64,000 nt of DNA, taken from an uncultured Rhizobiaceae group bacterium. GTDB lineage: Bacteria > Pseudomonadota > Alphaproteobacteria > Rhizobiales > Rhizobiaceae. The position numbers were made by a program, and so were the translations under genes. This document shows, piece after piece, positions 16,464-52,498 of the stretch (within the stretch, counting starts at the first letter, position 1; each line of letters begins with the position of its first letter). Location: contig CANMVS010000016.1 in the NCBI GenBank assembly GCA_947501445.1, forward strand, positions 1-64,000. Reading direction: 5' to 3'. Below the pieces are notes generated by a model. The model was not told the origin of the DNA. It saw nothing but the letters and a program-made list of their open reading frames with translations, and did no database searches.

Positions 16464-16489
16464 ACATTACGCATCGAAACTTGCGCGAA
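16464..16489 (-). promoter_or_regulatory. Bipartite promoter motif upstream of flhA
   Basis: On the minus strand TTCGCGCAAG is followed after nine bases by GTAATGT. The same arrangement precedes flgE, the fliH-like gene, the flgF operon, motA and fliF. Probably an activator site overlapping the -35 region plus a -10 element. Confidence 0.6.
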
Positions 16490-16717
16490 AGTGGTAGCGG
16501 TGCAGCCGGGGCAAAAAAGGATGATAAGGATTACCGGGACCGGACGCTTTCAGGAGACCAGAACGGCAGGACGCGCCTGAGCGCACACAGTCCCACTGGG
16601 CATCACATAGCGCAGTGCTGACGTGGCATTACCTATGAACCAGCATACCCCAAGTCCATGACAGCATTTGAGCCTGTCAGGCAGGACGAACACCATCGAG
16701 ATATACGCAAGACCAGC
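16490..16717. other. Unassigned spacer between fliQ and flhA
   Basis: The fliQ-flhA gap is 328 bases, large for this compact cluster. One end holds the flhA promoter motif. The rest has no supported ORF, and apart from a short GCCTGTCAGGC inverted repeat at about 16672-16682 I see nothing structured in it. Confidence 0.4.
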
Positions 16718-16984
16718 CTAAAAACCACTCTCGATGCGTGAAAATACCAGGTTGGTAAATCCGGCTATCTGCGCGCCGACAAATGGCGCAGATACAGCGA
16801 CGGTCACCAGTATGGCGACAATTTTCGGTACAAATGTCAGGGTGATTTCCTGCACCTGTGTCAATGCCTGAAGAAACGCAATGCCAACGCCTACAAACAT
16901 GGCAACAAAGACCGCCGGGCCAGAGGCAACCAGAATGGTCCAGATTGCCCTTTGAACGATATCCAGTGCGTCCGATTCACTCAT
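16718..16984 (-). CDS. fliQ: Flagellar export apparatus protein FliQ
   Basis: The 88 aa protein has two membrane helices; the FliQ consensus VGIAFLQALTQVQEITLTFVPK is clearly visible. It is a subunit of the export gate with FliP and FliR. It lies two bases after flgD. Confidence 0.94.
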   Translation of the reverse strand: MSESDALDIVQRAIWTILVASGPAVFVAMFVGVGIAFLQALTQVQEITLTFVPKIVAILVTVAVSAPFVGAQIAGFTNLVFSRIESGF

Positions 16985-16986
16985 GG

Positions 16987-17388
16987 TCAGGACACTTGCA
17001 GTCCTGGACCCATGACAACTTTCTCTCCGCTGTCGAGCGTTGCCACAACGCCGTCATCATAAATCTCGACGCTTTCAACAACACCGGTGACTGAGCCGTC
17101 CTGTGAACTGATCGTACGACCAATCAGCGATCCGGCCTGTGAAATGGAGGATGATTTCAGCAATTCCTCCAGACGTGTATTCGTCTGAATTGTCTGCTCG
17201 ACCTGAGAGAAGGTCGCAAGCTGTGCAACGTACTCGGTTGAATCCATCGGTTCGGTCGGATCCTGGTTCTGCATTTCAGCTACCAGCAGTTTCAGGAAAG
17301 TATCATAATCCAAGGCTGCCTTATTGGCCGCCGTGGATGAGGCTGTGCCCGGCTGGCTGCCTGCTGCCCCAACTGCGTCTACCGCCAT
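16987..17388 (-). CDS. flgD: Flagellar hook assembly scaffold FlgD
   Basis: The 133 aa protein is short, as in other rhizobia, and consists essentially of the conserved N-terminal half: [37 protein letters not shown], and then the GSLIGR segment. The protein caps the growing hook. Its start overlaps the end of flbT by 10 bases. Confidence 0.93.
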
Positions 17389-17828
17389 GGTGCAATCTCC
17401 CTTCTGATGTCTTCCAGTGTGTCCAGCGGCATCTGCTGGTTTTCGAGGATCTCTTCTTCCGTTTTGTAGAGACCTCGAATGGACTTTAATGCCTCAAAAA
17501 CCCGCCCCTCGGTAACCATTGCATCTACGTGCTTAAGCTCCGACAGAATCTGTTCATTGGTGAAACAATTGAGCAGCATCACAACGGATTTCTTGAACAT
17601 GGTTCTTGACTGTTCAGCCCCTTCCGGGTTGATCAACATCATCTGCACAATGAAGTAAAGTTGCCGCAATGGGGTCGATGCTTCCTCCGGCTGCAGAACA
17701 TGGTTTTCCAATAGAAAGGTCACGTCGTTCAGGAATTCGAGGCCAACCTTGCGGTCGACTTTCAAAACCGCACCGTTGATAAAAATTTTCTCGCCTGTCT
17801 TCAGGGAAATCCTCAAAGAACTTTTCAT
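17379..17828 (-). CDS. flbT: Flagellin post-transcriptional regulator FlbT
   Basis: The 149 aa protein has the FlbT pattern: [20 protein letters not shown], then [13 protein letters not shown] and a C-terminal [16 protein letters not shown]. In Caulobacter FlbT acts on the 5' leader of flagellin mRNA and promotes decay; in Brucella it acts positively. The three flagellin genes in this window share a conserved leader hairpin that could be its target. It overlaps flaF by four bases. Confidence 0.93.
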
Positions 17829-18172
17829 TGCAATCCATCCCGAATAATTTCGGAGATATCGATGATGCCATCGAAATTTTCTGATTCCCCGATTCTGATT
17901 TTTTCCGCCTCTCGCAGGATCCAGATGCCAATTGATATCAGATTGGCACGCAATTCCTGCTCCAACTCATTATCCGGAGAACCCAAATCTTCTATAAAGC
18001 GCACCCATATCCGATTGACGAAAAACAGGGCTTCAATGGACTCGCGGGATTTTTGTCCCTTTTCCCGAGCAGCCACAAGCATTTTAATTGATTTATCAAG
18101 AACTTGACGTTCGCGATCTTTGGAGTCAGCAACTGCATCTTGCTGAACTTCCGCATATGAGAACTGATACAT
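17825..18172 (-). CDS. flaF: Flagellar biosynthesis regulator FlaF
   Basis: The 115 aa helical protein contains the FlaF-type [22 protein letters not shown] and [28 protein letters not shown] blocks. FlaF works with FlbT in flagellin synthesis and secretion in alphaproteobacteria. It lies between flgL and flbT, the standard rhizobial order. Confidence 0.92.
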
Positions 18173-18217
18173 TCAGCCACCCTTTGCCTTCTCGGTTACT
18201 CTCGTTGCGCTTTGCAA

Positions 18218-19273
18218 TTACAGATAGTTTGTCAAACTCAACTGCTGAATCCTTGCGGTTAATTTGTATGACGTCTCAACCTGCGCCAGCAGGGTGGTAA
18301 GACGGGTGGATGCTTCATAAACGTCGACATTTTCCAATTCGCCGATGTAAAGCGACATCAGATCAATCTGCGCATTCAGGGACTCATTCGACTTGACGAT
18401 CCTCTGCTCGGAGACACCAAGCTGAGCCCGTTGAAAATCGACGCCGGAGATGCCCTGACCTGCATAATTAATGGCTTTTTCAGTTAAAGCCTGACGGGTT
18501 TCTCCTGACAGCGGAGAACTGAGCATCTCTGTTATCAGGACGGCAGCCATGGCCATGTTTTTGGCACCGTCAGAATTGATGTTGGTGGAGCTGGCGACAA
18601 CCTCATTGCTGTTGATACGGCTGGTCATATTGTTGTCGTCGGCACTGGACCAATCGGCCTGCCAGCCTGGTCCCATTATCAGCGGCTCAACGTGATTGGC
18701 GATAAAATCATCCAGTTGTGCCGGGGTAATTCCACCGGCTGCCGGGTCATTTTGTGTGAATCCAAAATACCCCAGATAAGCTGCATCAAAACTGGTCTTG
18801 GCCGCAGAAGTCGGCGTCCCATTGTAGTCGGCCATTGGCCGCACGTCTGTATTGACACCTGAGAATATGAATTCTCCATTGGCGGATGTATTGGCCACGC
18901 TGATAAAACTGTCGAGCGATGTCATTGCTGTTTCACTGGCAATGTTCAGCCGGTTCTTGTCATCTGAGCCAGTGACGCTGATAAGAGAATCGAGAAGCTG
19001 CTGGGCACTGCCGGACATCTGCTCCAGGGCATTTTGCGATGTCGATAACCGGTTTTGCACCAGTGCGTTGCTGTCGATGATCGTGCGCATTCTCAAGACA
19101 TCGCGGTTCAGCGAAATATTGCGCGATGACGAGGCACCCAGTTCAAGACCAATATCAGCGTGCCGACCGGTCACGGCCTCGGTTTGGGCTTTGAGAACGC
19201 CGGCCTGCGTGCGCTGCACGGTCAACCGAAGTGCATTCTGTATGGCTTGGGTGGATACAAATGTTGTTTTCAT
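18218..19273 (-). CDS. flgL: Hook-filament junction protein FlgL
   Basis: The 351 aa protein is flagellin-like at both ends: N-terminal RLTVQRTQAGVLKAQTEAVT with TGRHADIGLELG, and C-terminal LTTLLAQVETSYKLTARIQQ. It is the second hook-associated protein, joining FlgK to the filament. It starts four bases after flgK. Confidence 0.92.
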   Translation of the reverse strand: MKTTFVSTQAIQNALRLTVQRTQAGVLKAQTEAVTGRHADIGLELGASSSRNISLNRDVLRMRTIIDSNALVQNRLSTSQNALEQMSGSAQQLLDSLISVTGSDDKNRLNIASETAMTSLDSFISVANTSANGEFIFSGVNTDVRPMADYNGTPTSAAKTSFDAAYLGYFGFTQNDPAAGGITPAQLDDFIANHVEPLIMGPGWQADWSSADDNNMTSRINSNEVVASSTNINSDGAKNMAMAAVLITEMLSSPLSGETRQALTEKAINYAGQGISGVDFQRAQLGVSEQRIVKSNESLNAQIDLMSLYIGELENVDVYEASTRLTTLLAQVETSYKLTARIQQLSLTNYL

Positions 19274-19277
19274 CGCG

Positions 19278-20738
19278 TTACCGTGTTGCCGCCAGAAGCG
19301 CGTTGATCATTTCATCAATGGTGGTCAAAAGTTGCGTTGAAGCCTTGTAGGATTGCTCAAGATTGAGCAGGAGTGCCATCTCCTCATCAAGATTCACCCC
19401 GGTCGCATTTGAATAGGCTTCCAGCGTTCGTGTATTTGCCGCATTGCGATTTTCGGCAGCCAGACTGGCCTGCTGACGATTCAACTCCAGCCAACCGATC
19501 GAATCTGATGCGTAATTGATAAGGCTGCTGCTGGTTCCGGCCACCGCAGAACCATCAAAGGCCATGGGCGTGTCGAAACCGGTTATGTAGCCATCCAGAA
19601 GCTCGGTAAAACCCGCATTGCCCGCAGAGTTTGCATTATAGGATGCGCCATTGATACCACCATCGCGCAACAGCACCGGGTTGCCGGACCCTGGCAACAG
19701 TGCCGGATTAACCGTGAGACTGGCTGCCATTCCCGTAACAACGGTTGCGCCCGAGGGCACGGTTCCACCGGCCCAGGTAAACAGGCCCGGTAAATCCGGC
19801 AGGACAGCAGGGACAGACTGATCATGTTCTGCAAATGATACCACCAGTGCCCGGGCGATTTCATCAAGCTGGCTCTGGTAGGTGGTTGCCAGTTCATCGC
19901 GAATTTGCAGATTGGCAGCCAAACTGCCGGTTGCTGTGGTCTGCGCGCCCTGCCCTGCCTCCAGCGGAACACCATCAATCAGTACCTGACTGCCGGTGGT
20001 GGTTGCATCGAACCCGGACGTTGCCGTAAATTCGACCGGGCGCGGCACGGTTTCAAAAAGTGTCTGGCCGCTGTCGGTATAGATGGCAATATCATTACCC
20101 CCGCGCGCAACCGTTTGAATGCCAATAAGGGACGAAACCTCCCGCAGCAACATGTCGCGCTGATCCAGCAGATGCGAGGCGTCCTCGCCGGTCTGACTTG
20201 CCGCAAGAACGGCATTATTCACATCTTCGAAACGCCCAAGCAGAGAATTGAGCGTATCAACACCATGGGCAATTGCCGCGTCGGCATCCTTGCGAATGGA
20301 TTGGACTTCCCTGGACGCCTGGGAAAGGCTGTTGGCAACATCCTGAGCATTGGAAATAACAGATGCAGCCAATGTCGCATCACCCGGCGTCGCAGCCAGT
20401 GTTTGCAGACCATTTCTCAAATCACCAAGATATTTTGACGGTGACAACTCATAATCATTGCCACCAAGGGTCAGTTTCATGCGTTCAAGGCCGCCCGATA
20501 CGACCGTTTGTGCACTGCTGTTTGAGATACTGCCCAGCGACTGCACAAACAGGACCTGATCCTGCGCCCGGCGAATGCTCAGCGTCACACCACCACCAAA
20601 TTGCGGTTGCGTCTGCGACGCCCGGCGCGAATAATTTGGATTGCTTGCATTGGCTATATTGTCTGAAACCACCAAGGTCTGCCTTGATGTGTTCGACAAT
20701 ATTGACTGTGCAGTGCTGATCGCCGATGACAATGACAT
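19278..20738 (-). CDS. flgK: Hook-associated protein FlgK
   Basis: The 486 aa protein has the D0 rod/hook signature ALSISNIA-type segment (VVSDNIANASNPNYSRR) at about residues 24-40 and the C-terminal GVNLDEEMALLLNLEQSYKA. It forms the hook-filament junction. It lies 36 bases downstream of flgE and probably shares its transcript. Confidence 0.93.
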   Translation of the reverse strand: MSLSSAISTAQSILSNTSRQTLVVSDNIANASNPNYSRRASQTQPQFGGGVTLSIRRAQDQVLFVQSLGSISNSSAQTVVSGGLERMKLTLGGNDYELSPSKYLGDLRNGLQTLAATPGDATLAASVISNAQDVANSLSQASREVQSIRKDADAAIAHGVDTLNSLLGRFEDVNNAVLAASQTGEDASHLLDQRDMLLREVSSLIGIQTVARGGNDIAIYTDSGQTLFETVPRPVEFTATSGFDATTTGSQVLIDGVPLEAGQGAQTTATGSLAANLQIRDELATTYQSQLDEIARALVVSFAEHDQSVPAVLPDLPGLFTWAGGTVPSGATVVTGMAASLTVNPALLPGSGNPVLLRDGGINGASYNANSAGNAGFTELLDGYITGFDTPMAFDGSAVAGTSSSLINYASDSIGWLELNRQQASLAAENRNAANTRTLEAYSNATGVNLDEEMALLLNLEQSYKASTQLLTTIDEMINALLAATR

Positions 20739-20774
20739 ATGCGGGCCTTAAGCCTCCAAACGGGTTAGAAACGC

Positions 20775-22055
20775 CTATCGTTTCAGATTTACGAGAACAT
20801 CCATCAGATCCGAGCCGGTCTGAAACACTTTTGAATTGGCCGTATAACTGCGTTGCGAGGCAATCATATTTGTCAGCTCTTCCGCGATATCCACGTTCGA
20901 GCCCTCCAGTGCCCCTGAAACAATTTTTCCGAAATTGCCTGATCCGGCAAAACCTGTCGTGACGACACCTGATTCACTGTTCTGGGCAAAAATGTCACCC
21001 GACAGGGACTTCAGATTGTCCGGGCTTTGGACATTTGCCAGCGCAATTCTGTATTTCGGTTCGAGCGTGCCGTTTTCATATTTTGCAAAAACGGTTCCAT
21101 CATTGGTAATTTCGACACTCTTGACCTTGCTCGGAGCATTGCCGTTGACATTGGCATCGCCAATATTGAGCTCATGCGCCAATTGCGTCATGGCCGAAAA
21201 ATCCATGACCAGGTCGCGGTTGTCCGGATAACCGGCGGCAGTGGTAAATGGAATTGTCAGCCCCGGTGCAGCGCCGAGAATTTTACCATTGGTCGGATCA
21301 AAATTAATCGTTCCGCTGGCAAGTGGCGCCGACCCGGCGGCACCGTAGGGAAACGACGTACCAGCTGTTGCGTCGGCGCGATCATATACGGCCACCTCCC
21401 AGGTATTGGCAGCGGTTTTTGTATAATAGAAGTCCAGCAGAACTTCCTGCCCAAGCTCGTCATAGGTCACAAGCGAGCTCTTGGCCGTAAACTCTGAGGT
21501 CGCAACATTGTCCGCTGGCGTGTCGCCTGTCACCGCATCGGCATCAGAGGGAAGGTTTGCCGGAAATTTACCCGTCGTTGAGGCCTCGGCAACCAGTTCT
21601 CCCTGCAGCACGTTAATGGGCACGAGGCCGTCAAAACCGTTTACCACCGGTGTCGGTGCACCGTCAGTGTAATTGTACCCCATCAACGTAAAGCCGGCCG
21701 CATTGACCAGATTGCCATCGCTGTCCGGAATGAAAGCGCCTGCTCTTGTCAGGTAGGAAACACCTGCACCGTCCTGCACCACGAAGAACCCGTCGCCACC
21801 GATGGCCAGGTCCGTGATGGACGTGGTAAACTGCAGTGCACCTTCTTCAGAAATGGCATATCGCACTGATGTACTGACACCACCGGAATTGTAGCCGCCA
21901 CCTGCATTTGGAAGGATGAGCGAGGAAAATTCTGTTGAGCTGCGCTTGTAGCCCGTCGTATTGGCGTTGGCGATATTATCTGCGACAGTTCCCAAACGTG
22001 CCGCTTGCGCATTCATGCCGGAAACACCGGTTCGCATCATTCCATATAGGCTCAT
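20775..22055 (-). CDS. flgE: Flagellar hook protein FlgE
   Basis: The 426 aa protein has the N-terminal rod/hook motif LGTVADNIANANTTGYKRSS, the D1 region, and the C-terminal EGSNVDIAEELTNMIASQRS plus NSKVFQTGSDLMDVLVNLKR. It is the hook subunit. It is first in the flgE-flgK-flgL-flaF-flbT-flgD-fliQ run; a bipartite promoter motif lies 45 bases upstream. Confidence 0.95.
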   Translation of the reverse strand: MSLYGMMRTGVSGMNAQAARLGTVADNIANANTTGYKRSSTEFSSLILPNAGGGYNSGGVSTSVRYAISEEGALQFTTSITDLAIGGDGFFVVQDGAGVSYLTRAGAFIPDSDGNLVNAAGFTLMGYNYTDGAPTPVVNGFDGLVPINVLQGELVAEASTTGKFPANLPSDADAVTGDTPADNVATSEFTAKSSLVTYDELGQEVLLDFYYTKTAANTWEVAVYDRADATAGTSFPYGAAGSAPLASGTINFDPTNGKILGAAPGLTIPFTTAAGYPDNRDLVMDFSAMTQLAHELNIGDANVNGNAPSKVKSVEITNDGTVFAKYENGTLEPKYRIALANVQSPDNLKSLSGDIFAQNSESGVVTTGFAGSGNFGKIVSGALEGSNVDIAEELTNMIASQRSYTANSKVFQTGSDLMDVLVNLKR

Positions 22056-22083
22056 AGCACATATCCTCGCTGGTATCTTTCAC

Positions 22084-22109
22084 ACAGTAGATTTGCTGGC
22101 TTGTGCGAA
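22084..22109 (-). promoter_or_regulatory. Bipartite promoter motif upstream of flgE
   Basis: Minus strand: TTCGCACAAG, nine bases, CTACTGT. Spacing is identical to the flhA, fliH-like and fliF sites, but this one is closer to the start codon (45 bases). Confidence 0.55.
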
Positions 22110-22241
22110 ACTGGTTTGTGTGCGGCCTTTTCAATTTTCCTGAACAGGAAAACAAAGAAACGCCAAGTACTATAGGCTGTGCAGGGGTTGTAATATTAAG
22201 TAGTCAAGCCGGGCCTGTTTTCTTGCTGGCCCACCTGTGCG

Positions 22242-22913
22242 TCAGGACCAATCGATCAGATAACCAAGAAACCGCTTTGAATCGATTGGATCGAAATCAA
22301 GCCGCATGCGCAGCTTCTTGCGCAGTTTGCTGATGTGACTTTCGACGACATTCTCTTCAACATCATCATCAAAAATTCCGTAAATTGCGTTGAATATCTG
22401 CGACTTGCTTACCCGCCGTCCGCGGTTGGCAACGAGATACTCCAAAATTCGTCTTTCGCGCCTTGGCAAAGCAAATTGCTGACCATCAATTTCCGGGTCA
22501 CGCCCGTCGGAATAAACCCTGATACGACCAATTTCAGTATAGTCGGAACCTGGCTCCAACCGCCGTCTGATTGCCGCGGCCCGGGCCAGAATTTCGCGTG
22601 GATGGATAGGCTTGCGCACCACATCGTCAGCGCCATTGTCAAAGAAGGCGAGCGTGGAATCCAACGAGGGATGATCGCTGACTGCAATGACAGGCGCTTT
22701 TGAGCGATCCCGAATAACCCGCGGCAATACAATATTGCCGTTGCCCTGTCCTATCAAAAATGCTTCCACCGCATCTATATCTGAGTCAGCAGCAGAATGG
22801 ACCCATTCTCCGAACTCCTGCGGATCGAACCCGGTGGAGGGAACGCCCTCTCTAAAAAACAGTGATGTATAGCCAGCCGTAACCAGCTCCCGTTCATCAA
22901 CCACAACGATCAT
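22242..22913 (-). CDS. rem: Flagellar transcriptional regulator Rem/FtcR (OmpR family)
   Basis: The 223 aa protein closely resembles Brucella FtcR and S. meliloti Rem, activators of flagellar genes. The receiver-like N-terminus starts [10 protein letters not shown], and the winged-helix domain contains [19 protein letters not shown] and [16 protein letters not shown]. The position where a receiver normally has its phosphorylated Asp has no Asp ([10 protein letters not shown]), so it probably acts without phosphorylation, as is known for this group. It lies between the transglycosylase gene and flgE. Its promoter region holds a CtrA-type box and a variant of the flagellar promoter motif. Confidence 0.93.
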
Positions 22914-22944
22914 GTGTTCGCCCCCGAATCACTTTGTTGCTTCA

Positions 22945-22960
22945 TTAACCAATAGTTAAC
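22945..22960. promoter_or_regulatory. CtrA-type box in the rem promoter
   Basis: TTAACCAATAGTTAAC, that is TTAA, seven bases, TTAA followed by C, matching the CtrA consensus. It lies about 32 bases upstream of the rem start. A poorer half-match (TTAACGAATCTTGACC) is at 23091-23106. Confidence 0.6.
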
Positions 22961-22995
22961 GAATTGACTGATTCTTCGACAACTACATAAAATGA

Positions 22996-23021
22996 GGGGT
23001 ACTTTTTCGTAGTTGCGCGAA
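22996..23021 (-). promoter_or_regulatory. Variant flagellar promoter motif upstream of rem
   Basis: Minus strand TTCGCGCAAC (one mismatch to the shared motif), 99 bases before the rem start, but the downstream heptamer is only GTACCCC. Possible autoregulatory site. Confidence 0.35.
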
Positions 23022-23192
23022 TCCGAGCGGGTGATTTGCCACTAGATATAGTATGCCTGACGTCATACACGCATATTTTCTGTGGAAATGTTAACGAATC
23101 TTGACCTTCATTAACCAAAATTTTGTTGACTCATTAATTTTTGCCACAATCCAAATTACACAAAAAATTGCCATGCAAACAACTTTTGGTTG

Positions 23193-26488: not shown

Positions 26489-27727
26489 CTACCCGGTCGG
26501 CTTCACAATGAGAATTTCAATGCGGCGATTGGCATCGGCAAATGGTTTATCAACAACTTTCAGACGTCGATCCGCAAAGCCCGAAACCTGCGTGATACGC
26601 GCTTCGTTCAGTCCACCGCGAACCAGCATGTAATAGGCGCTGTGAGCACGGGCCATCGACAATTTCCAGTTATCGTTGCCCTCGCCTGCAAACGGGCGGC
26701 TATCCGTGTGTCCACGTATGCTGACTGAACCGTTTTGAGCCACAAGCAACTGCCCGATTTTCTCCATGGCAACGACAAGATCGCGTTGAGGCACCGCTGA
26801 ACCAACATTGAACATCGTGCCCTTGACCTCATCCGTCAGGGAGATCAGTAATCCCCCTTCGGCCGGTGCGACACTCAGCCCTTTGCCTAAATCAATTCGC
26901 TCCGATTTCAGTGATTGCTGTATTTGGGTCTGCAATTGTCTGGCAGCTTCGTCCTGACGGGTGTCGTCTTCAACATCAACAGGCTTTTCGGACTCAACTT
27001 TGTGCAAAACCACTTTGCTATCTGCCGCTTTTTTCTCCGAAGCATTATCCACCTGCGCTGCCTGCAATGCTTCTTCGATAGCATCGCGGCCATCGGCAAT
27101 AATGACGGCGCGTTCGGCATTATTGCCGGGTGTCACAAGTGCCTTTGTCTCGACCTCAACCGACCGCGACCAGAAATCCGGATCAAACGGATCACGATAG
27201 GCTTCACCACCTGATGCACCACTGGCTGGTCCGGACGTTTGGGCACCACCATCTCCTGCAGCGCTGACATTTGTCTGCTGCCCGGTCTCGAGTGCTATTT
27301 CAGCCAGCACGGAGTAGGGATTTTCAAAATAGTCCGCATCAGAGTATTTTGTTTTATCGCCCGCTGCAGCATTAAGTTCGTCCCCACCACCAATCTTGGT
27401 GCCGGACTGGTAACCAGCCTCCGTTGAATCGGACAAATAACTGATTTCGTCGCCGGACGTTGTCTGGTTGAGTTCGCGCAATCCCCGCTCCGCCGGCTTG
27501 TCATCTGTCAGTCGGATCGGATTGAAATAGCTGGCAACCGCGGCACGGGTTTCATCATTGGCCGCATTGATCAGCCACATGACAAGAAAGAAAGCCATCA
27601 TTGCCGTCATGAAGTCTGCATAGGCAATTTTCCAGGCACCACCATGGTGACCGACGTGCCCCTTGTTGCGCCTTTTGACGATGATGATTTCGTTTGGCGT
27701 GTGATGAGTGGATTGTTCTGTGCTCAT
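26489..27727 (-). CDS. motB: Flagellar stator protein MotB
   Basis: The 412 aa protein has a single membrane helix after GGAWKIAYADFMTAMMAFFL, with the proton-conducting Asp at 38. A long periplasmic linker leads to an OmpA-type peptidoglycan-binding domain (SIRGHTDSRPF, LSMARAHSAY). The linker is longer than in enterobacteria, as in other rhizobia with MotC. Overlaps the fliH-like gene by four bases. Confidence 0.95.
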   Translation of the reverse strand: MSTEQSTHHTPNEIIIVKRRNKGHVGHHGGAWKIAYADFMTAMMAFFLVMWLINAANDETRAAVASYFNPIRLTDDKPAERGLRELNQTTSGDEISYLSDSTEAGYQSGTKIGGGDELNAAAGDKTKYSDADYFENPYSVLAEIALETGQQTNVSAAGDGGAQTSGPASGASGGEAYRDPFDPDFWSRSVEVETKALVTPGNNAERAVIIADGRDAIEEALQAAQVDNASEKKAADSKVVLHKVESEKPVDVEDDTRQDEAARQLQTQIQQSLKSERIDLGKGLSVAPAEGGLLISLTDEVKGTMFNVGSAVPQRDLVVAMEKIGQLLVAQNGSVSIRGHTDSRPFAGEGNDNWKLSMARAHSAYYMLVRGGLNEARITQVSGFADRRLKVVDKPFADANRRIEILIVKPTG

Positions 27728-28383
27728 GCAAGAACCTCACGAAGCCGACCGGCCCATTCACTTAAGCGAGTTGAGAGAATGGCATCATCGATCGAAACGT
27801 TAAGGTCAAACACATCATTTTCAACAAATTTGAGACGGGCAGACTTGTCTTTCAGCGCGCGCTTGAGTTCTTCACATAAAGAGGGCGCACCTGATGCGGT
27901 AATGCGACTGACTTCAGGTTCCTCAAATGCCTCACCGAGCAAAACAACAAGCTGCTCGATCATCCTGTCGCTCATGGCTTTTTCCATAACCGGCGCCAGA
28001 ACACGCGTAACCTGTGCGCCAATGGTTTCGATCAGTTCAGCTGCAAGAATGTCATAACGCTCGGCAATCAACGTCGACACACCCTGCTCATATTCGGTTC
28101 TCAATGCATTGAGTTCATCAACATGCAGGCTGCGCAATTCTTCAACAACTGCACTGTGCTTTGTATCATGCGCCAGCGCAGCTTCCTGCCGCCCAAGCTC
28201 AAACGCCTCAGCCCGCACAGAGTCCAGATCAATCGCCGGTGCCTGCGCCATTTCAACCGTCTCCGGGGGCAGCACAATGGCTTCCCGGGTGACACCGGTT
28301 GTTGCTGTCGGGGTTTCGACAGATAGAACAACGCGTTCAGGCTGGCTGAAATCTTTCAGATAGCGTTCAATCGCAAGTGCCAT
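27724..28383 (-). CDS. fliH: FliH-like regulator of the export ATPase (putative)
   Basis: The 219 aa protein has a central Glu/Ala-rich helix (AEAFELGRQEAALAHDTKHS) and a C-terminal domain with ALKDKSARLKFVENDVFDLN and DDAILSTRLSEWAGRLREVL, consistent with FliH/YscL-type stator proteins that bind FliI. It is first gene of the transcript leading into motB-motC-fliK. It has a strong copy of the flagellar promoter motif 103 bases upstream. Confidence 0.7.
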   Translation of the reverse strand: MALAIERYLKDFSQPERVVLSVETPTATTGVTREAIVLPPETVEMAQAPAIDLDSVRAEAFELGRQEAALAHDTKHSAVVEELRSLHVDELNALRTEYEQGVSTLIAERYDILAAELIETIGAQVTRVLAPVMEKAMSDRMIEQLVVLLGEAFEEPEVSRITASGAPSLCEELKRALKDKSARLKFVENDVFDLNVSIDDAILSTRLSEWAGRLREVLA

Positions 28384-28469
28384 TCACGCACCTTTCAAAG
28401 ACGTGACAGACAGCCAAATCCTGTACTGCCCACAGAATCTAACCGTGAGAACGGGGAAATATTGCCGGT

Positions 28470-28495
28470 ACATTAGAGGGTGAAACTTGCGCGAA
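28470..28495 (-). promoter_or_regulatory. Bipartite promoter motif upstream of fliH-motB-motC
   Basis: Minus strand TTCGCGCAAG, nine bases, CTAATGT. It has the consensus form of both elements and lies 103 bases before the start codon. Confidence 0.6.
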
Positions 28496-28568
28496 GATGA
28501 TGGTGAGCGGTGTGGAAAACAGAGGCTGTTGCTGTGGGGGAGGTCATATGGACCGGCAACACATGGCT

Positions 28569-28605: not shown

Positions 28606-28615
28606 ACTTGAACGG

Positions 28616-29584: not shown

Positions 29585-29614
29585 GGTGCTGCCCCTTCAG
29601 GCGAGAATATTAGT

Positions 29615-39469: not shown

Positions 39470-39585
39470 CCGAATCTCCCTCTGCAGCAACAATCTATGA
39501 ATTCAATCTTGCGTGGGACTTGCGGTTTAAAAGGCCTGCCATTTCCGGCGGCTATTTCAGCACGATTGGGGCTGGTCTTTTCTAA

Positions 39586-40212: not shown

Positions 40213-40227
40213 TTTCCCGCAATTGCC

Positions 40228-42314: not shown

Positions 42315-42315
42315 A

Positions 42316-43089: not shown

Positions 43090-43202
43090 CTAGTATCCAA
43101 TTTTGGGTTCTATCCAATATCGGCCAGGACTGAATCAGACAGGCCTGACAACACCCGCAAGCCCCCTGTGAAACCGCACCTTGCTCCATTCCCGGCAACA
43201 TA

Positions 43203-43228
43203 GATTTACGTGTCATTGCTTGCGCGAG
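43203..43228 (-). promoter_or_regulatory. Bipartite promoter motif of the flgF operon
   Basis: Minus strand CTCGCGCAAG, nine bases, GTAAATC, 130 bases before the DUF1217 gene. It is the outward-facing partner of the motA motif in the same divergent intergenic region. Confidence 0.5.
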
Positions 43229-43285
43229 GCTTTCCACGGGCCATGCCGTCAATTCCTTTGCTCTGTGTGCATGCGAACGACCAGC

Positions 43286-43311
43286 TTCACGCAAGCCAAG
43301 CCGCTTAATTC
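43286..43311 (+). promoter_or_regulatory. Bipartite promoter motif of the motA operon
   Basis: Plus strand TTCACGCAAG, nine bases, TTAATTC, 107 bases before motA. One mismatch in the first element. The divergent spacer 43090-43401 (312 bases) otherwise shows no recognised feature. Confidence 0.5.
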
Positions 43312-43401
43312 TGTCAGCGTCGACATCGGAAATTGATTGCATGAAGCACAATCCGGTCATCGGCTGGTCCTGTGCACAGGCAAAATGGAGTCGGCCTATC
43401 A

Positions 43402-45229: not shown

Positions 45230-45293
45230 ACAGGCAGATCATCGCACGACGTTCAGCGCTGGCTAACGTCAATAAATGAACAACAAGGGACGC

Positions 45294-45890
45294 ATGATAA
45301 TGTCTAGTAACGAAGCCATGAAGGGCGAAGACTGCACAGAGGAAGATACTGGCGCTGAACTGGATCAGGCTATCAACGATCTGCGCGGTGTTCTGGACAA
45401 GGATGCAAGCGGCCAACTTGATGATATGCCCGCCGTCGAGCAACCCTTTGCAGCGGCTGACTTTTCCATGGATGATTTCACCCAATCACCGTCGGATGAA
45501 ATGCCTGCCGGCGGGATCGCAGATGACATGTCAGACACCGGTGCATCAGCATTTTCGATGGACACAATGGACACAGGCTCTGTACCAAAAAGTGCAGTTC
45601 CCACGACCGGCCCCAGCGGCACGGTTGCCAATCGTGACATCATCATGGACATCCCGATTGATGTGCAGATCCTGCTCGGAAAAACCCGGATGAAGGTTTC
45701 CAGTCTCATGTCACTGGAGGAAGGCGCCACCATCTCGCTTGACCGGCGTATTGGTGAGACAGTTGATATCATGGTCAACGGCAGATTGATCGGGCACGGC
45801 GAGATTACCGTTCTGGAGGAAGATGAAACCCGTTTTGGTGTACGACTTACCAATATTATTGGCGATAACACGACGTCGGATAAGCAATAA
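45294..45890 (+). CDS. fliN: Flagellar motor switch protein FliN
   Basis: The 198 aa protein from ATG 45294 (AGGG upstream). The acidic N-terminal half is low-complexity (DFSMDDFTQSPSDEMPAGGI); the C-terminal SpoA domain (IPIDVQILLGKTRMKVSSLM, RLIGHGEITVLEEDETRFGV) is typical. It is longer than enterobacterial FliN. Its stop overlaps the fliG start in TAATG. Confidence 0.93.
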   Translation: MIMSSNEAMKGEDCTEEDTGAELDQAINDLRGVLDKDASGQLDDMPAVEQPFAAADFSMDDFTQSPSDEMPAGGIADDMSDTGASAFSMDTMDTGSVPKSAVPTTGPSGTVANRDIIMDIPIDVQILLGKTRMKVSSLMSLEEGATISLDRRIGETVDIMVNGRLIGHGEITVLEEDETRFGVRLTNIIGDNTTSDKQ

Positions 45891-46930
45891 TGCAAAGTTT
45901 CGACGAATTTTCAGCTAACCCCGCCCTCGAACAACCGCTGAACCGTGCACAAAAGGCCGCCGCCGTTCTCATTGCCATGGGAAAACCTGTTGCGGGAAAA
46001 CTGCTAAAATTCTTTTCATCCAGTGAATTGCAAACAATCATCGACAGTGCCCAGTCACTCAGGAGCATACCACCGCACGAACTCGACGATGTGGTTAGCG
46101 AATTTGAGGACCTGTTCACTGAAGGCACCGGGCTCATGGACAATGCCCAGGCCATGGAGGGAATACTCGAGGAAGGGCTTTCACCGGATGAGGTTGATGG
46201 TCTTTTGGGCCGTCAGGCGGCATTTCAAAAACTCGAAACAACCATCTGGGATAGAATTCAGGATGCTGATCCTGTCTACATCGGTAAATATCTGAAAAAG
46301 GAACACCCGCAGACCATAGCCTATGTGGTTTCCATGCTGCCTTCATCATTTGGTGCAAAAATCCTGCTGCAGATCGCCCAGGATCAACGGGCAGACATCA
46401 TTCACCGAGCGGTCAACATGAAATCCGTCAATCCAAAGGTTGCGGATATTATTGAACAACGTGTCAGACAGATGCTGGAAGGTCTTGAGGCGGAACAAAA
46501 TACAACGGCGACCAACCGGATGGCAGATCTGATGAATGAATTGGACAAGCCGGTTGTCGACGCGCTTTTGGGCGATCTGGAATCCATCAGTGCCAGTGAT
46601 GTTGCGCGGGTCAAACCTAAAGTGTTCCTGTTTGAGGATATTCTGACCATGCCGCACCGCAGCAGGATTACCCTCTTCAATGATATCAGCAATGACAATA
46701 TAACCCTGTCCCTTCGCAGCGCTCCGGGCCACCTGCGTGAAGCGGTTCTATCGTCCATCGGCGCCCGCCAGCGACGCATGATCGAGGCCGACCTTACCGA
46801 TGGCGCGCAAAATGTGACTGCCCGCGATATTGCTGTCGCCCGCAGGTCCATCACCCAGGAAGCCATGCGGTTGGCCTCTCTTGGTCAGTTAAGCCTGATT
46901 GACAAAAGCCAGGATGAACAGGCGGCCTGA
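45890..46930 (+). CDS. fliG: Flagellar motor switch protein FliG
   Basis: The 346 aa protein has the N-, middle (EHPQTIAYVVSMLPSSFGAK) and C-terminal domains (VFLFEDILTMPHRSR, LREAVLSSIGARQRRMIEAD) present. It transmits torque between the stator and the MS ring. Translationally coupled to fliN. Confidence 0.95.
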   Translation: MQSFDEFSANPALEQPLNRAQKAAAVLIAMGKPVAGKLLKFFSSSELQTIIDSAQSLRSIPPHELDDVVSEFEDLFTEGTGLMDNAQAMEGILEEGLSPDEVDGLLGRQAAFQKLETTIWDRIQDADPVYIGKYLKKEHPQTIAYVVSMLPSSFGAKILLQIAQDQRADIIHRAVNMKSVNPKVADIIEQRVRQMLEGLEAEQNTTATNRMADLMNELDKPVVDALLGDLESISASDVARVKPKVFLFEDILTMPHRSRITLFNDISNDNITLSLRSAPGHLREAVLSSIGARQRRMIEADLTDGAQNVTARDIAVARRSITQEAMRLASLGQLSLIDKSQDEQAA

Positions 46931-47020
46931 TATCTGTGGCCATGATGCGGCAAACCACACCACCAAAGTTCAGGATCATCGCTCCGCAAAACCATTTTCT
47001 CACGATCAGGAATTCGGATC

Positions 47021-48100
47021 ATGTCTGAAGAACAGGATAAGGAAAGCAAGACCGAAGAGCCGACCGAGAAAAAGATTCGCGACGCGGTCGAAAAGGGTAA
47101 TATCCCCTTCTCGCGGGAGGTGCCGATATTCGCCTCTTCGATGGCCATTCTGGTTTTTTGCATATTTTTCATGCCGTCTGGCGCTGCCTATGTGACTGTT
47201 TCGCTGGCGGATGTTTTTGAAAAAGCGGACAAATGGCCGCTATCAAGTGGCGAAGACAGCCTATCGCTGTTCAATCATCTGTTTTGGGAGACAAGTCATC
47301 TCCTGCTACCGGCCTTCGCACTGATGATGGCCTTTGGCATCGCAGCCTCTGTTCTGCAGAACATTCCAAGACCCGCACTGGACCGTGTGCAACCGAAACT
47401 TTCAAGACTGTCGATCAGCAAGGGGTTCAAGCGCATTTACGGGGCGCAGGGTCTGGTCGAATTTGCAAAATCCCTGACAAAAATTCTGGTAATCTCAACA
47501 ATCGTTGCCCTGGTCATGTTGAGTGACTATTTTGAATCACTCGCGGGCATGTTCTCAGATCCGATAACCATTCCCCAGATCATGGCCCGTCTTGCAGCAA
47601 AGGTATTTGCAATAATCCTGATCGCGACGGCGCTTCTTGCCATCGTGGACTTATTGTGGACGCGTTTCCATTGGCACAATGAGTTACGCATGACCCGCCA
47701 GGAATTGAAAGACGAAATCAAACAGTCTGACGGGGATCCAATCATCAAGGCAAGGCAACGTTCCCTGGCGCGAGACCGTGCACGCAACAGGATGATGTCT
47801 GACGTGCCACGCGCTACACTGGTGATTGCGAATCCAACCCATTTTGCTGTCGCTCTACGCTATGTGCGCGAAGAAAATGAAGCGCCTGTCATTGTGGCAA
47901 AGGGACAGGATCTGGTTGCATTGAAAATTCGGGAAATCGCCGAAAAAAATGATGTTCCTGTCTTCGAAGACCCGCCATTGGCACGCTCCATTTTTGCACA
48001 AGCTTCGGTTGGTAGTGTCATTCCAGCGGCATTTTACAAGGCCGTCGCAGAATTGATCCATGTGATCTACGCCAAGGCAGGGGAGCAGGGGCGGTCATGA
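47021..48100 (+). CDS. flhB: Flagellar export switch protein FlhB
   Basis: The 359 aa protein has four membrane helices and a cytoplasmic domain with the autocleavage site NPTH at 271-274. The N-terminal [20 protein letters not shown] is characteristic. It lies 90 bases after fliG, probably in the same transcript. The C-terminal domain follows FliK signals to change export specificity. Confidence 0.96.
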
Positions 48101-48170
48101 AGAGAACGCACGCCATTTATAATGCTCATCTGTATATGTTCAGCGCCAACAGACTTTAGATTTATTATTC

Positions 48171-48599
48171 ATGAAAAAATGCCCCTATACAAAACAGCGT
48201 GAAGAAATAGTCGCTCATGCCATTCGAAGTGTTGCCAGCGAATTGCGGTTGCTCGACGCCGCCGATCTGATAGCGTTGCTGCGTCTGGAATGCCACGGCG
48301 ATCTTGCCGATCTGGTTTCCTCGGCAGCCGAACTTTTCTTTCTGCCAGGGACGGTCAATTTCGGTATCGGCGGCGATTACAGCCTTGATTGGGGAACAAC
48401 ACCTCAAGTCACGCTCGACATCGAGTTGAAACCGGTCGGCATGACAGTCTTTGCCCGTTTGACCTTACTGGAAAGCCATGGTGCGGTTGAGATCAATCAC
48501 ATTACTTTTGACGACCCATCACAGGATCCACACGAAAACACAGCCCTGCTGGCCGCCAGCCTCGAGGCCAGTTGCTTTCAAATAGCAAGTGCTGCCTAG
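48171..48599 (+). CDS. Hypothetical protein downstream of flhB
   Basis: The 142 aa protein is not a family I recognise. It begins with a helical segment (REEIVAHAIRSVASELRLLD, LIALLRLECHGDLADLVSS) and ends in a beta-rich half (LDIELKPVGMTVFARLTLLE). No signal or membrane segment. A small hypothetical gene also occupies this place in S. meliloti as I recall. It ends just before a strong bidirectional terminator. Confidence 0.65.
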   Translation: MKKCPYTKQREEIVAHAIRSVASELRLLDAADLIALLRLECHGDLADLVSSAAELFFLPGTVNFGIGGDYSLDWGTTPQVTLDIELKPVGMTVFARLTLLESHGAVEINHITFDDPSQDPHENTALLAASLEASCFQIASAA

Positions 48600-48639
48600 A
48601 ACCTGTTTCGCGGCACCACTTTCCAGGCGGCGTTGAGAA

Positions 48640-48663
48640 AACAGGGGCGCGAGCGCCCCTGTT
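48640..48663. terminator. Bidirectional terminator between the flhB operon and visR
   Basis: Perfect 11-base arms AACAGGGGCGC and GCGCCCCTGTT around GA. On the minus strand the stem is followed by TTCTC. It separates two convergent genes. Confidence 0.85.
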
Positions 48664-48690
48664 CCAATCCAACCCACATCAAGCGCTGAG

Positions 48691-49425
48691 CTAGCCAATC
48701 AATCCCAGGCGTATCGCCTTGGCAATGGCCTGTATTCTGTTGACAGCATCCAGCTTGCTTGCGGCAAAGCCCAGATAGGCATTTACCGTATGCACAGACA
48801 GCCCCAGATCCTCGGCAATGCCTTCACTCTTGTAACCGTCAGCAGCCAGTTGCAGGCACTGCAGTTCCCGGTCATTCAGGCTTTGTTGAGGCGCAAATTT
48901 CTGGACATCCAGTGCCAGTAATTCACGCATGATCCGATAGGCATCGCCGTGGAACTCCACCGCCCGATCACCGGAAATATCCAGATCGCGCCCGAAAAAC
49001 AGGACAAATCCATTGCCCATAATGCCCAGCTTCACCGGAAAACCAACACCAGCACTGCCGATACCGGATATGGGTAATATATCCACAAAACCGTCGCCAT
49101 CAGGCAGCCCGTTGATTTCCACAGGCCAGCGGAATGGCAGAAGTGACCTTTCCATATGCAGCTCAATCGCATCGCTGAGCGCAGGCAGGCTAAGCCGCAT
49201 TTGCCTGTCTATGGAACTGAAAACAACCGTGGTTCTGTTTTGCACATTAGGTGCAAACCGGTTAACTCTGCACACCGCATAGCCATCAGCACCAAGAATA
49301 TATCTTAGTTCTTGAGCTGCATCCTCAAGCTCTACAGATCCACGTGATTTAGTATTCGTTTTTTGTGGCCATGGCTGACAATCCTCTAGATTATCATTGA
49401 CCGAATCTCGCAATGCCGTCTCCAA
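48691..49425 (-). CDS. visR: LuxR-type flagellar regulator VisR
   Basis: The 244 aa protein has an N-terminal ligand-binding-like domain followed by a LuxR helix-turn-helix (NDRELQCLQLAADGYKSEGI, LSVHTVNAYLGFAASKLDAV). VisR works as a heterodimer with VisN at the top of the rhizobial flagellar cascade, activating rem. It is assigned as VisR because it is the second of the tandem pair after fliF, the S. meliloti order; the two names could be exchanged. Confidence 0.8.
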   Translation of the reverse strand: METALRDSVNDNLEDCQPWPQKTNTKSRGSVELEDAAQELRYILGADGYAVCRVNRFAPNVQNRTTVVFSSIDRQMRLSLPALSDAIELHMERSLLPFRWPVEINGLPDGDGFVDILPISGIGSAGVGFPVKLGIMGNGFVLFFGRDLDISGDRAVEFHGDAYRIMRELLALDVQKFAPQQSLNDRELQCLQLAADGYKSEGIAEDLGLSVHTVNAYLGFAASKLDAVNRIQAIAKAIRLGLIG

Positions 49426-49531
49426 CGTCTCGCCCCCGTTTTTGACTTCATTTCATTTATGTATTTTGTAAAACAGACTTCATGCCCATTCTCAAAATGT
49501 CGAATGGCGGATCCAATTTACCCGCTCGGGC

Positions 49532-50200
49532 TCATATCAAATTGTTTCGTACTGCATGGGCAATCGCCTCCGATCGGGTTTTGGTTGATGTCTTTCTCAT
49601 TATGCCAGTTATGTAATTGTTTACCGTATTGCGTGAGATACCGATGATCAGGGAAATCTCATCGCTGGTCTTGCCTTCTGCAATCCAGGACAAGCACTCC
49701 ATTTCACGCTCTGTCAGATCCTGCAGAACCTCAACACCAAATATACTCTGCTGAAAGCCTGCCAAATGATAAGCACATATCTGCCCAACATCGCGTAAGC
49801 GGTTCTCGGAAAATATCATGCCCTCCGGAAACAGCAAAAGCATTGCCATGCGTGCGGGGCCAACATCAAACGGAATGATGCAAATTTGCTGACCTACATT
49901 TTGCGGCATCCTGATTGTTTTGGGACAATCCGCATAGGTGGGCAGCATTGCCGACATGCACCGTTCAATCTCGGTAACCTTCAACTGCGCGCGCACCAGG
50001 ATAACACCCAGCTTTCGCACCAGATCATAAGGCCAGTTTGACGAAACAGCAAAATCAAGGCTGCCTTCGCTGTAAATATCCCAACGCACCAGCAGATAGT
50101 TGCAAGCGCTGGCATACTGGGCGATCAGCCCAAGTCCATCGGAAATATCGCCTGACTTTCCAGCGATCCTCACGTCTTCCAATAGGCGCGCCCGGCTCAT
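49532..50200 (-). CDS. visN: LuxR-type flagellar regulator VisN
   Basis: The 222 aa protein has the same layout as VisR: an N-terminal sensor-like domain, then a LuxR DNA-binding domain (LTEREMECLSWIAEGKTSDE, ISRNTVNNYITGIMRKTSTK). It is adjacent to visR in the same orientation. Partner of VisR in controlling rem. The gap of 106 bases to visR leaves room for a second promoter. Confidence 0.8.
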   Translation of the reverse strand: MSRARLLEDVRIAGKSGDISDGLGLIAQYASACNYLLVRWDIYSEGSLDFAVSSNWPYDLVRKLGVILVRAQLKVTEIERCMSAMLPTYADCPKTIRMPQNVGQQICIIPFDVGPARMAMLLLFPEGMIFSENRLRDVGQICAYHLAGFQQSIFGVEVLQDLTEREMECLSWIAEGKTSDEISLIIGISRNTVNNYITGIMRKTSTKTRSEAIAHAVRNNLI

Positions 50201-50631
50201 AGCAGGTCACCATTGATAGAAGTCATGCCTTTTGCGGTGGTGTGCTGAATATTCAACAGACCACTCGTCATCACTGCCGTTGGATTATATCCAGCGGCAG
50301 GATATGTAATGCCTCGTCCCGGCACATAGACCCCCAGTGTTATATTTCGCCGTAACACCATATCTTATATTTATCACATCGCCCGAAATTTGCCTACATG
50401 GACCGCCTCAGCCGCACGCGCCCAATTGACCAATTCAACAGGGCACAGCAAATTCCAAAAACAAGCTAGCATGCATTTTTACTATTTCGAATTGTGATTT
50501 CTGACACTTTACAGGCAATTCGTATTGTTGCAGCCACCTTCTGAAGGTCCGAAGAAGCAGGCGTCTGTGATCTCTGATCATATTAATGTCCGACCCGCGA
50601 CACACCACGCGATCAATCTGTCTTGTGCAGG
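50201..50631. other. Intergenic region upstream of visN
   Basis: About 430 bases that must hold the visN promoter. AT-rich stretch ATATCTTATATTTATCAC at 50360-50377. No copy of the flagellar promoter motif, no CtrA box, and no supported ORF. Confidence 0.45.
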
Positions 50632-50696
50632 GCAAAATCTGAATACATCAACAGATTCAGCGGCCGACAGCACAAGCCTGATCCTCAATCCACTAG
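50632..50696 (+). repeat. Palindromic intergenic repeat, copy H (degenerate)
   Basis: CAAAATCTGAATACATCAAC followed by AGATTCAGCGGCCGACAGCA matches the middle of the family with decay; hairpins are largely lost. It ends in CTAG (50692-50695), which contains the fliF stop codon. Confidence 0.5.
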
Positions 50697-52396
50697 GCAG
50701 CATCTTCCAATGCCCACTTGCGCAATATTTTGGCCGCACGTTCTTCGTTGATCTCAACCATACGGGCCAGTCTTTTTTCCGGCCCTTCCTTGACCCGCGA
50801 ACTGATATCTTCACCTGCCGGCGCGAAATTCGGCATGGCCCCCATTGTCGGAGCGCCCTCACCCAGGGCAAAGCCACCTGCGTCAGCCGGATTTTCTGCT
50901 GCATCAAAGCCAAAATCAGCACCAAACCCTTCCATGCCGCCGGTTGCGGGGCTGAAGTCCGGCAAGTCCGTTCCACCCTCTTCTTCCATCGCCGCAGAGA
51001 CCGTCAGCGCCTTGGCGAGTGGTCGAAAGCCAAACCATATGACCAGTAACGCGACAAGAACAAAGGCTCCGGCATTGATCATGGAGCCTATATGGCGGCT
51101 TGCCGATTGCACAAATCCGCCAGACTGCGCGCTACCGCTCAACAGCTCTGTGTCCAGAAACTGAACAACTGTCAGATTGATCTGATCGCCACGCTCGCTA
51201 TCAAGTCCTGCCGCAGATCTGACAATCTGCTCCAACTCGGCCAGGTGCGCGCTTCGCTCATCCGGGGTCGCAGCCTCCCCAAGCATTGCAGCAACGCGAC
51301 TTTCATTGATGACGACAGCGATGGAAAGCCGTTCAACATTGTAACTGTTGCGCACTGTCGCAACCGTACGCGAGTTAATCTCGTAGTTGGTTTGTTCTTC
51401 CTTGCGTTCATTCGATTCCGTTGATTGAGGCCCGGATGTGCTTTGCACCTGCTCGTTAGGCAGATTTTGCTCAACGGTTGCAGGTGTATTGGCGTCAGTG
51501 CTGTTCGAAGCCTTGTTTTCACGGGTGATTCTGATGGAACGCTCAACGCGTGATTCGGGATCAAAAACGGTCTCCTGAATCTGTTGGGTGTCGGTATTTA
51601 TCTGCGCTCTGACACTGGCGCGAAAGTTATCCACACCGAGAAAGGGAGCCAGAGCCTTGTCAATATTACTGACGACTTCCGCCTCAACGGTCTGCACAAT
51701 ATTCAATGATCTGTTCATCGTGCTGTTGGAATAATCATCTCCGGAAGCCAGCAACTGCCCGGTTGAATCGAGCACGGTCACATCATCGATGCCGAGCCCC
51801 GGCACGGACGAAGCCACAAGGTGCCGGATTGATTCCGCCGACCGGCGACCATCGTTGCCGACCGCACGCACCATCACCGATGCAGATGGTTTTTGTTCGC
51901 CACGACGAAAGCTGCCACGATCCGGCATAACAATGTGAACACGCGCAGCGCTAATTCCATTTATTGAACGTATTGTACGGGCAATCTCACCCTCAAGGGC
52001 CCGAACGCGGGTCACTTCCTGCATGAATGACGTCAGACCAAGTGAGCCAACATTGTCAAACAGCTCGTAACCGGAATTTGCACTATTGGGCAAACCACGC
52101 TCTGCAAGTGTCATGCGGGCTCTGCCGGTCATACCAACCGGAACACTGATGGCTGCACCATCTGCGCTGACTTGCGTCGGAACATTTATCTCAGCCAGTG
52201 CGATCGCAATCTGATTGGAATCATTTGCTTCAAGGCCAACATAAAGCGTTTCATAGGCCGGCTTGTTCAAAAAAACGGCCGCCAGCACAATAAGCACAAT
52301 GGCCAACCCGCCTGCCGCTGCAAGTGCAACGAGACGTTTTGTTCCAAGTTCCGCAAGGGTTCCTGGCAAACTGGAAAGTTGGTTCAACAGATTCAT
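50693..52396 (-). CDS. fliF: Flagellar MS-ring protein FliF
   Basis: The 567 aa protein has two membrane helices (residues about 24-44 and 433-453) flanking the periplasmic ring-building domains (ALAEINVPTQVSADGAAISV, ALEGEIARTIRSINGISAAR, VHIVMPDRGSFRR). Its FliG-binding C-terminus ends in AAKILRKWALEDAA. It has its own promoter motif 93 bases upstream and a stop codon in the CTAG edge of a degenerate repeat. Confidence 0.95.
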   Translation of the reverse strand: MNLLNQLSSLPGTLAELGTKRLVALAAAGGLAIVLIVLAAVFLNKPAYETLYVGLEANDSNQIAIALAEINVPTQVSADGAAISVPVGMTGRARMTLAERGLPNSANSGYELFDNVGSLGLTSFMQEVTRVRALEGEIARTIRSINGISAARVHIVMPDRGSFRRGEQKPSASVMVRAVGNDGRRSAESIRHLVASSVPGLGIDDVTVLDSTGQLLASGDDYSNSTMNRSLNIVQTVEAEVVSNIDKALAPFLGVDNFRASVRAQINTDTQQIQETVFDPESRVERSIRITRENKASNSTDANTPATVEQNLPNEQVQSTSGPQSTESNERKEEQTNYEINSRTVATVRNSYNVERLSIAVVINESRVAAMLGEAATPDERSAHLAELEQIVRSAAGLDSERGDQINLTVVQFLDTELLSGSAQSGGFVQSASRHIGSMINAGAFVLVALLVIWFGFRPLAKALTVSAAMEEEGGTDLPDFSPATGGMEGFGADFGFDAAENPADAGGFALGEGAPTMGAMPNFAPAGEDISSRVKEGPEKRLARMVEINEERAAKILRKWALEDAA

Positions 52397-52472
52397 TCTG
52401 TCTCCACATCACCATCGGGCGGCTTCAATACGCAACATCGGCCAGGCAGCATGTGCCCGTCCGACAAAATGC

Positions 52473-52498
52473 ACACTAGATAATGAAGCTTGCGCGAA
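52473..52498 (-). promoter_or_regulatory. Bipartite promoter motif upstream of fliF
   Basis: Minus strand TTCGCGCAAG, nine bases, CTAGTGT, 93 bases before the fliF start. Confidence 0.6.

Follow-up and report, generated by a model that had tools for sequence, protein, structure and literature searches.

A tandem 11-base-pair repeat upstream of flagellar operons in Rhizobiaceae and their relatives as the putative binding site of the activator Rem

Rem, a regulator of the FtcR family, is known as a flagellar master activator, and its control of flagellar operons of the kind discussed here is already known, though the parts of the literature that could be searched yielded no consensus for the site recognized by rhizobial Rem. 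Which sequence would such a protein read? The question is raised by a flagellar gene cluster in a stretch of 64,000 nucleotides from an uncultured bacterium of the Rhizobiaceae group (positions 1 to 64,000, forward strand, of contig CANMVS010000016.1 in assembly GCA_947501445.1; hereafter the window), where one promoter architecture was predicted before six flagellar operons: the decamer TTCGCRCAAG, nine bases, and a heptamer near STANTGT. In the passages available to us, earlier papers report that Rem activates class II genes directly, with no need for phosphorylation (PMC9812332), that it belongs to a VisNR-Rem cascade and has homologues in Bradyrhizobium and Azorhizobium, where VisNR is absent (PMC8429497), and that it is inhibited by MirA (PMC12632262). 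Judged from comparative sequence analysis, the sites are very probably Rem binding sites built into class II flagellar promoters.

The six 26-base sequences of the original prediction are present at their predicted coordinates and on the predicted strands, and decamer and heptamer are separated by exactly 9 bases in all six. Extended to the full element described below, they are putative Rem-type promoters of flhA (16464-16496, minus strand; 22-base-pair (bp) tandem repeat, 5 bp and TAATGT; 19.5 bits), flgE (22084-22116, minus; repeat, 5 bp and TACTGT; 16.0 bits), a gene for a protein of 219 amino acids (aa) (28470-28502, minus; 23.4 bits, the best score in the genome), the DUF1217-flgF-fliI operon (43203-43235, minus; 13.7 bits), the divergent motA-fliM-fliN-fliG-flhB operon (43279-43311, plus; 18.4 bits) and fliF (52473-52505, minus; 21.5 bits). 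The set of six was correct as far as it went, and incomplete. A weaker putative promoter of the same type precedes flgB (decamer to heptamer 39492-39517, full element 39492-39524, minus; 10.9 bits), and another lies inside the flhB coding sequence (47993-48018, full element 47986-48018, plus; 14.7 bits), upstream of a gene for a 142-aa protein without Pfam match (48171-48599, plus). The 219-aa gene (27724-28383) has no family match and heads the motB-motC-fliK operon; motB, motC and some of the other names are presumed from gene order and recall. The rod gene flgB was named from its Pfam rod domain and gene order. A distance of 45 to 130 bases to the start codon had been predicted, which is slightly off: the first base of the decamer lies at 54-139 bases and the end of the heptamer at 28-113 bases, the motA distance being taken from a GTG at 43372 although the start is likely an ATG further down. 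At 43203-43311 the DUF1217 and motA sites make up a divergent promoter pair, 57 bases separating the starts of their decamers, and comparable divergent pairs occur in the genomes G136, G187 and G131.

The decamer is real, but it belongs to a larger element, of which it is the best conserved portion. Conservation per column runs from about 7 bases before the decamer through position 26 and fades on both sides. The element consists of a 22-bp tandem direct repeat with a period of 11 bp, near RCMAGCYTCRCRCAAGCYTSG, that spans bases -7 to +15 relative to the decamer and is followed by 5 bp and the hexamer TANNNT. For the eight window sites the self-match at period 11 was 0.51, compared with 0.25 after shuffling (highest value in 20000 shuffles 0.43), and all other periods from 7 to 15 reached at most 0.29. 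Two larger site sets, the first of which contains window sites, gave 0.50 and 0.48 at period 11 and no more than 0.35 at other periods. Each half-site of 11 bp reads roughly RCMAGCYTCRN; the promoter-proximal half (CRCAAG) hardly varies, whereas the distal one is less strict, with CMRN around an invariant A. The repeat is most evident at the flgB site, which has CGCAAG in both halves. Within sites, covariation of the half-sites at period 11 did not exceed that found between sites (z 0.2-0.3); it is thus the consensus that carries the repeat, and not compensating changes.

In 184 sites selected from three genes, the hexamer TANNNT opens with an invariant TA, 10 bp downstream of CAAG; the selection used these TA columns themselves, yet flgE kept 77 distinct flanks out of 80. 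It is looser outside the family of the window. Two conserved boxes with a fixed spacing before flagellar operons might also be read as the -35 and -10 of a sigma factor, alternative or flagellar, that needs no activator. The 10 bp between the end of the decamer and the hexamer are too few for a -35, the conservation covers a direct repeat of 22 bp whose period is 11 bp, and the hexamer past its TA is the more variable part. In view of the spacing and the repeat we reject the sigma-factor explanation, which seems highly improbable. The layout is consistent with the idea, already present in the original prediction, of an activator site overlapping the -35 that is followed by a -10, since it puts an 11-bp tandem repeat 5 bp before TANNNT. 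The direct half-sites are 11 bp apart, within the 10-11 bp typical of a tandem-repeat promoter of the OmpR/PhoB type. Repeats of this kind are bound by OmpR/PhoB-type activators, to which Rem belongs, and the layout is the one expected for a head-to-tail dimer of such a protein in the position of the -35.

The specificity of the element within the genome of 6.82 megabases (Mb) can be judged in several ways. The pattern TTCGCRCAAG-N10-TANTGT is matched exactly at 4 places in this genome, each of them inside the cluster. With up to 2 mismatches there were 28 matches against 17 for the reversed control, from which we conclude that weak pattern matches elsewhere are mostly background. To avoid circularity, a sequence-only model was trained on 64 sites outside this genome (28 taken from clusters across the order, 36 from named loci). 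Its seven top matches in the genome are the six earlier sites and the flhB-internal site, at 23.4-13.7 bits and with expectation values (E) of 3.1e-4 to 0.45, the weakest three not being significant alone. Of 1788 first-look candidates, 150 were scored in this search, and the E-values of the model are rough. The two matches that follow (12.8 and 10.4 bits) lie within long open frames on other contigs. Under independent random placement, the chance that all seven best matches fall in the cluster is about 6e-15. The flgB site ranked eighth when the model was run on the window only, and was not in the genome-wide match list, which covers the 150 scored candidates.

In relatives, too, the sites are concentrated at flagellar operons. 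With a matrix built from the six window sites and a threshold of 13 bits, 80 named loci (mostly Rhizobium, Ensifer/Sinorhizobium and Shinella) were examined. Sites above the threshold precede flgE in 80/80 loci, flhA in 72/78 (0.92) and the 219-aa gene in 0.43 of 77; none was found before rem (80 loci), flgK (79), flgL (79), motB (79) or a flagellin gene (78). In a random-window control, 95% of the best scores per 269 bases were up to 10.3 bits and 99% up to 19.2 bits; since its windows come from these very loci, true sites are among them, and the gene-by-gene controls are fairer. In the named loci the sites thus precede structural flagellar operons and not flagellin or regulator genes, as is to be expected for class II.

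The pattern extends beyond these genera. In 18 clusters from Rem-bearing genomes across the order, pooled with the window, there were 69 matches with a score of at least 11 and 40 with a score of at least 15, where reversed sequence gave 18 and 1, respectively; the clusters of G167, G139, G028, G022, G085 and G100 were little informative, with at most 11 of 49 window genes near rem. The exact decamer YTCRCRCAAG, counted up to 250 bp upstream of a gene with the window included, was found before flgE in 9/14 genomes, motA in 8/11, fliF in 6/13, flhA in 4/12, the 219-aa gene in 2/3, DUF1217 in 2/10, flgF in 2/14 and flgH in 1/9. It did not occur before rem (0/19), and the reversed decamer did not occur before any gene counted. 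A site with one changed decamer base precedes flgB in 6 genomes, flgB itself having been located in 9 genomes by a stricter criterion than was used for that count. An exception to the rule of structural operons is the flagellin gene, which carries the decamer in 3/11 genomes, belonging to three other families. Upstream of flagellin genes in the genomes L176, L170 and L161, from three families, a shared stretch near CATGGCAGRTTGR begins at the 22nd base after the decamer, a candidate for another promoter or leader element.

Which protein binds the repeat? The candidate, rem, is encoded within the cluster (22242-22913, minus strand) and was named from similarity and gene order. Its product of 223 aa, a member of the FtcR family, has a degenerate receiver domain that falls under the Pfam cut-off and an OmpR/PhoB winged helix (PF00486, E 5.8e-16, residues 144-219). 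Among 30 Rem proteins from across the order the winged helix is better conserved than the receiver (0.79 vs 0.66), and the stretch ExHxSKLRKxL in it is fixed. The nearest solved chains are RegX3 and response regulator D; the acceptor aspartate stands opposite a glutamate of Rem in the alignment with RegX3 and opposite a gap in that with response regulator D.

Relatives of Rem, defined by E <=1e-44, occur in 47 of 199 genomes of the order (two of the matches being partial), the other 17 of the 64 reported matches having E 1e-24 or weaker. Genomes with FlhA, 149 of the 199, were taken as flagellated. A match to the model at E <=0.01 was present in 30 of the 43 flagellated genomes with Rem, whereas only 2 of the 106 without Rem had one. 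With nine training genomes left out, 22 of 34 flagellated Rem-bearing genomes still matched. For 61 genomes of the family of the window, one per genus, the corresponding figures were 38/51 with Rem and 0/10 without; this family set mainly tests for flagella, because nine of the ten genomes without Rem also lack FlhB. The exact 26-base pattern gave 41 matches in the 47 Rem-bearing genomes (reversed control 14) and 28 in the 152 others (reversed control 41). The model is to be preferred over this pattern, which is blunt and misses shifted hexamers. The distribution agrees with the earlier proposal that the activator is Rem/FtcR, and suggests that VisN is not needed.

The assignment to Rem has to be weighed against a number of observations. 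No match at E <=0.01 was found in 13 of the 43 flagellated Rem-bearing genomes. This cut-off was picked once the match lists were known; at E <=0.02 the counts become 36/47 with Rem and 8/152 without, and at E 0.1 a match appears in 5 of the 10 genomes without Rem in the family set. The genomes, being related, are not independent samples, and the training loci and the searched sets may have some species in common. Moreover, Rem accompanies one type of FlhA, so that another regulator of that flagellum, inherited together with it, would produce a similar picture. The 65 matches across the order at E <=0.01 also include 18 elsewhere in Rem-bearing genomes and 3 in genomes without Rem, next to the 44 within 70 kilobases (kb) of rem or its FlhA, a measure of nearness only. 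Of these 18, 3 belong to genomes whose cluster is split and lie before motA, and one is upstream of a chemoreceptor gene; the remaining 14 precede genes without known motility role. Finally, the accessible text on Brucella melitensis FtcR gives a different motif from chromatin immunoprecipitation sequencing (ChIP-seq), TGTGGGCA, in 118 of 363 peaks (PMC9456535).

The 14 off-cluster matches may be background or unknown targets. All are outside open frames longer than 450 bases, many have near-perfect repeats, and several are common to species of one family. The genes downstream include one with DUF2336, one of the glutamyl-tRNA synthetase type, one for a periplasmic binding protein, one with a weak glycosyltransferase-like match and genes without a match, the Pfam comparison having covered the downstream genes of eight of the 18 matches. 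Within one family, the genomes L267, L268, L270, L273 and L274 have tandem repeats such as GGCAAGCTTCGCGCAAGG that are conserved between species, upstream of genes without known motility role and distant from flagellar genes.

A different regulator of the same flagellar system, such as a VisN/VisR heterodimer, would be compatible with the joint inheritance of Rem and the flagellum type, and the window does contain visN (49532-50200) and a visR-like gene (48691-49425), the match of the latter being under the curated cut-off. VisN was detected in only 6 of the 199 order genomes at E <=1e-20, three of them under its cut-off and all in the family of the window, whereas the site is also found in Rem-bearing genomes of several other families. 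This distribution makes VisNR unlikely as the general binder, and a head-to-tail repeat of 11 bp suits an OmpR-type and not a LuxR-type protein. We consider it improbable that Rem merely accompanies another protein that binds the repeat, and Rem is retained as the most plausible binder.

As a separate observation, the FlhA proteins fall into two well separated groups, with about 57-78% and about 43-48% identity to FlhA of the window. Some genomes have both, and 41 of the 41 listed genomes with the first group carry Rem.

If Rem is indeed the activator, two of its winged-helix domains would bind head to tail on the two 11-bp half-sites, the repeat would substitute for the -35 hexamer, with TANNNT as the -10 hexamer 10 bp after its CAAG, and Rem would recruit the housekeeping RNA polymerase to these promoters. 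A rise in Rem could then lead to joint activation of flhA, flgE, the motB operon, the DUF1217-flgF operon, motA, fliF and flgB, while the extra promoter within flhB would drive the 142-aa gene that follows. We infer Rem binding, this dimer geometry, the start points and activation from the sites found, the form and conservation of their repeat, their concentration at flagellar genes and their co-occurrence with Rem. The repeat may also suggest how an activator that is independent of phosphorylation can act at many operons simultaneously.

The layout is similar to that of known promoters. In the pho box, direct repeats 11 bp apart replace the -35 at about 10 bp from the -10, and PhoB recruits housekeeping RNA polymerase there. 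The window sites share the 11-bp spacing of the direct repeats, and would have the same layout if the repeat substitutes for a -35 and TANNNT serves as the -10, but they read CMAGCYTCR where the pho box has TGTCA, and Rem, unlike PhoB, reportedly works without phosphorylation. The CtrA box has the form TTAA-N7-TTAA; it differs in sequence and was not seen by eye in any of the eight window site sequences. According to the portions of the papers that were available, the Rem class II regulon of Sinorhizobium meliloti and Rhizobium leguminosarum is likewise under a regulator of this family and comprises export, basal body, hook and motor genes, the kinds of target seen here too (PMC8429497, PMC9812332); in comparison with it, the 22-bp repeat, the flgB site and the flhB-internal site are defined in this window. 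FtcR of B. melitensis belongs to the same regulator family and also has a flagellar role, whereas its ChIP-seq motif, as given in the text seen, is unlike the window repeat (PMC9456535) and by eye is not contained in the consensus of either of our site analyses. The FeuP site of S. meliloti, TTCA-N7-TTCA, is described in the accessible part of its source as a candidate response-regulator site and also has an 11-bp period, but its sequence and targets differ from those of the window repeat, and none of the three new motifs of that study is this repeat (PMC3616915). In the literature searched, much of it seen in part, we did not find the repeat, its flgB and flhB-internal members or their reach, without claiming that they are absent from print; a search with the decamer string gave nothing on the flagella of this group among the matches listed. 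A defined repeat should make the Rem regulon readable from a genome, and provides an exact test against the Brucella FtcR motif.

The site inside flhB deserves separate attention. FlhB is present in 49 of the 61 family genomes, and the best 30 of the 49 flhB loci were compared. The sequence TTTGCRCAAG-N9-RTANNNT is found at the same place in 16 of these 30, including this genome, where the heptamer is ATAGTGT; its start lies 96-120 bases upstream of the flhB stop, and 85-196 bases separate its end from the 142-aa gene. The stretch could be a by-product of a conserved protein motif, with no regulatory role, since it encodes conserved FlhB residues, and the remaining 14 loci score at most 6.2 there, several of them with a degenerate TACAARCAAG. 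Because the site encodes conserved residues, synonymous variation was measured in the 16 genera with the motif. Their codon choice is fixed across the site (TTT 16/16, CAA 16/16, GTC 15/15, GAT 14/14, AGT 13/13) and at two codons of the distal half-site, one spacer codon is free, and beyond the site codon choice is mostly free. The site is the most synonymously constrained of 81 eight-codon windows. Furthermore, two residues within it differ in this genome while the motif bases are kept. An origin as a protein motif only is, in our opinion, rather unlikely, and the site is probably an intragenic promoter for the 142-aa gene. It is a clear candidate for a promoter that constrains its host coding sequence. 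The wider proposition, that Rem reads one 11-bp tandem-repeat code throughout the order and that a copy inside flhB of Rhizobiaceae fixes codons as class II promoter of the 142-aa gene, appears likely on the whole.

The region upstream of rem is different. A weaker version of the element had been predicted there (22996-23021, minus strand). The sequence is present, but we rejected it as a Rem site: its decamer ends in CAAC, the two halves agree at 0/11 positions, and it is not conserved, in line with the absence of sites above 13 bits before rem in the 80 relatives and of the exact decamer in the 19 clusters. It occupies the slot that in relatives holds a CtrA-type box. A TTAA-N7-TTAA at 105-108 bases upstream of rem was counted 63 times in the aligned regions (L059-L138 and the window), and 68 of the 81 aligned upstream stretches contain one somewhere; this genome and L059-L061 have no such box at that slot. 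In the part of the source that was available, a CtrA motif is noted at the S. meliloti rem promoter, with no CtrA binding there by ChIP-seq (PMC4433202). Other conserved blocks before rem are GTTAAC, CAAATCG and GAATC..GATTCG, which are candidate sites for VisNR or other proteins. As to visN itself, its frame in the window (49532-50209) encodes 222 aa and spans positions 25-246 of the family profile; an in-frame TGA stands immediately 5' of the ATG, and the start is possibly a shorter one.

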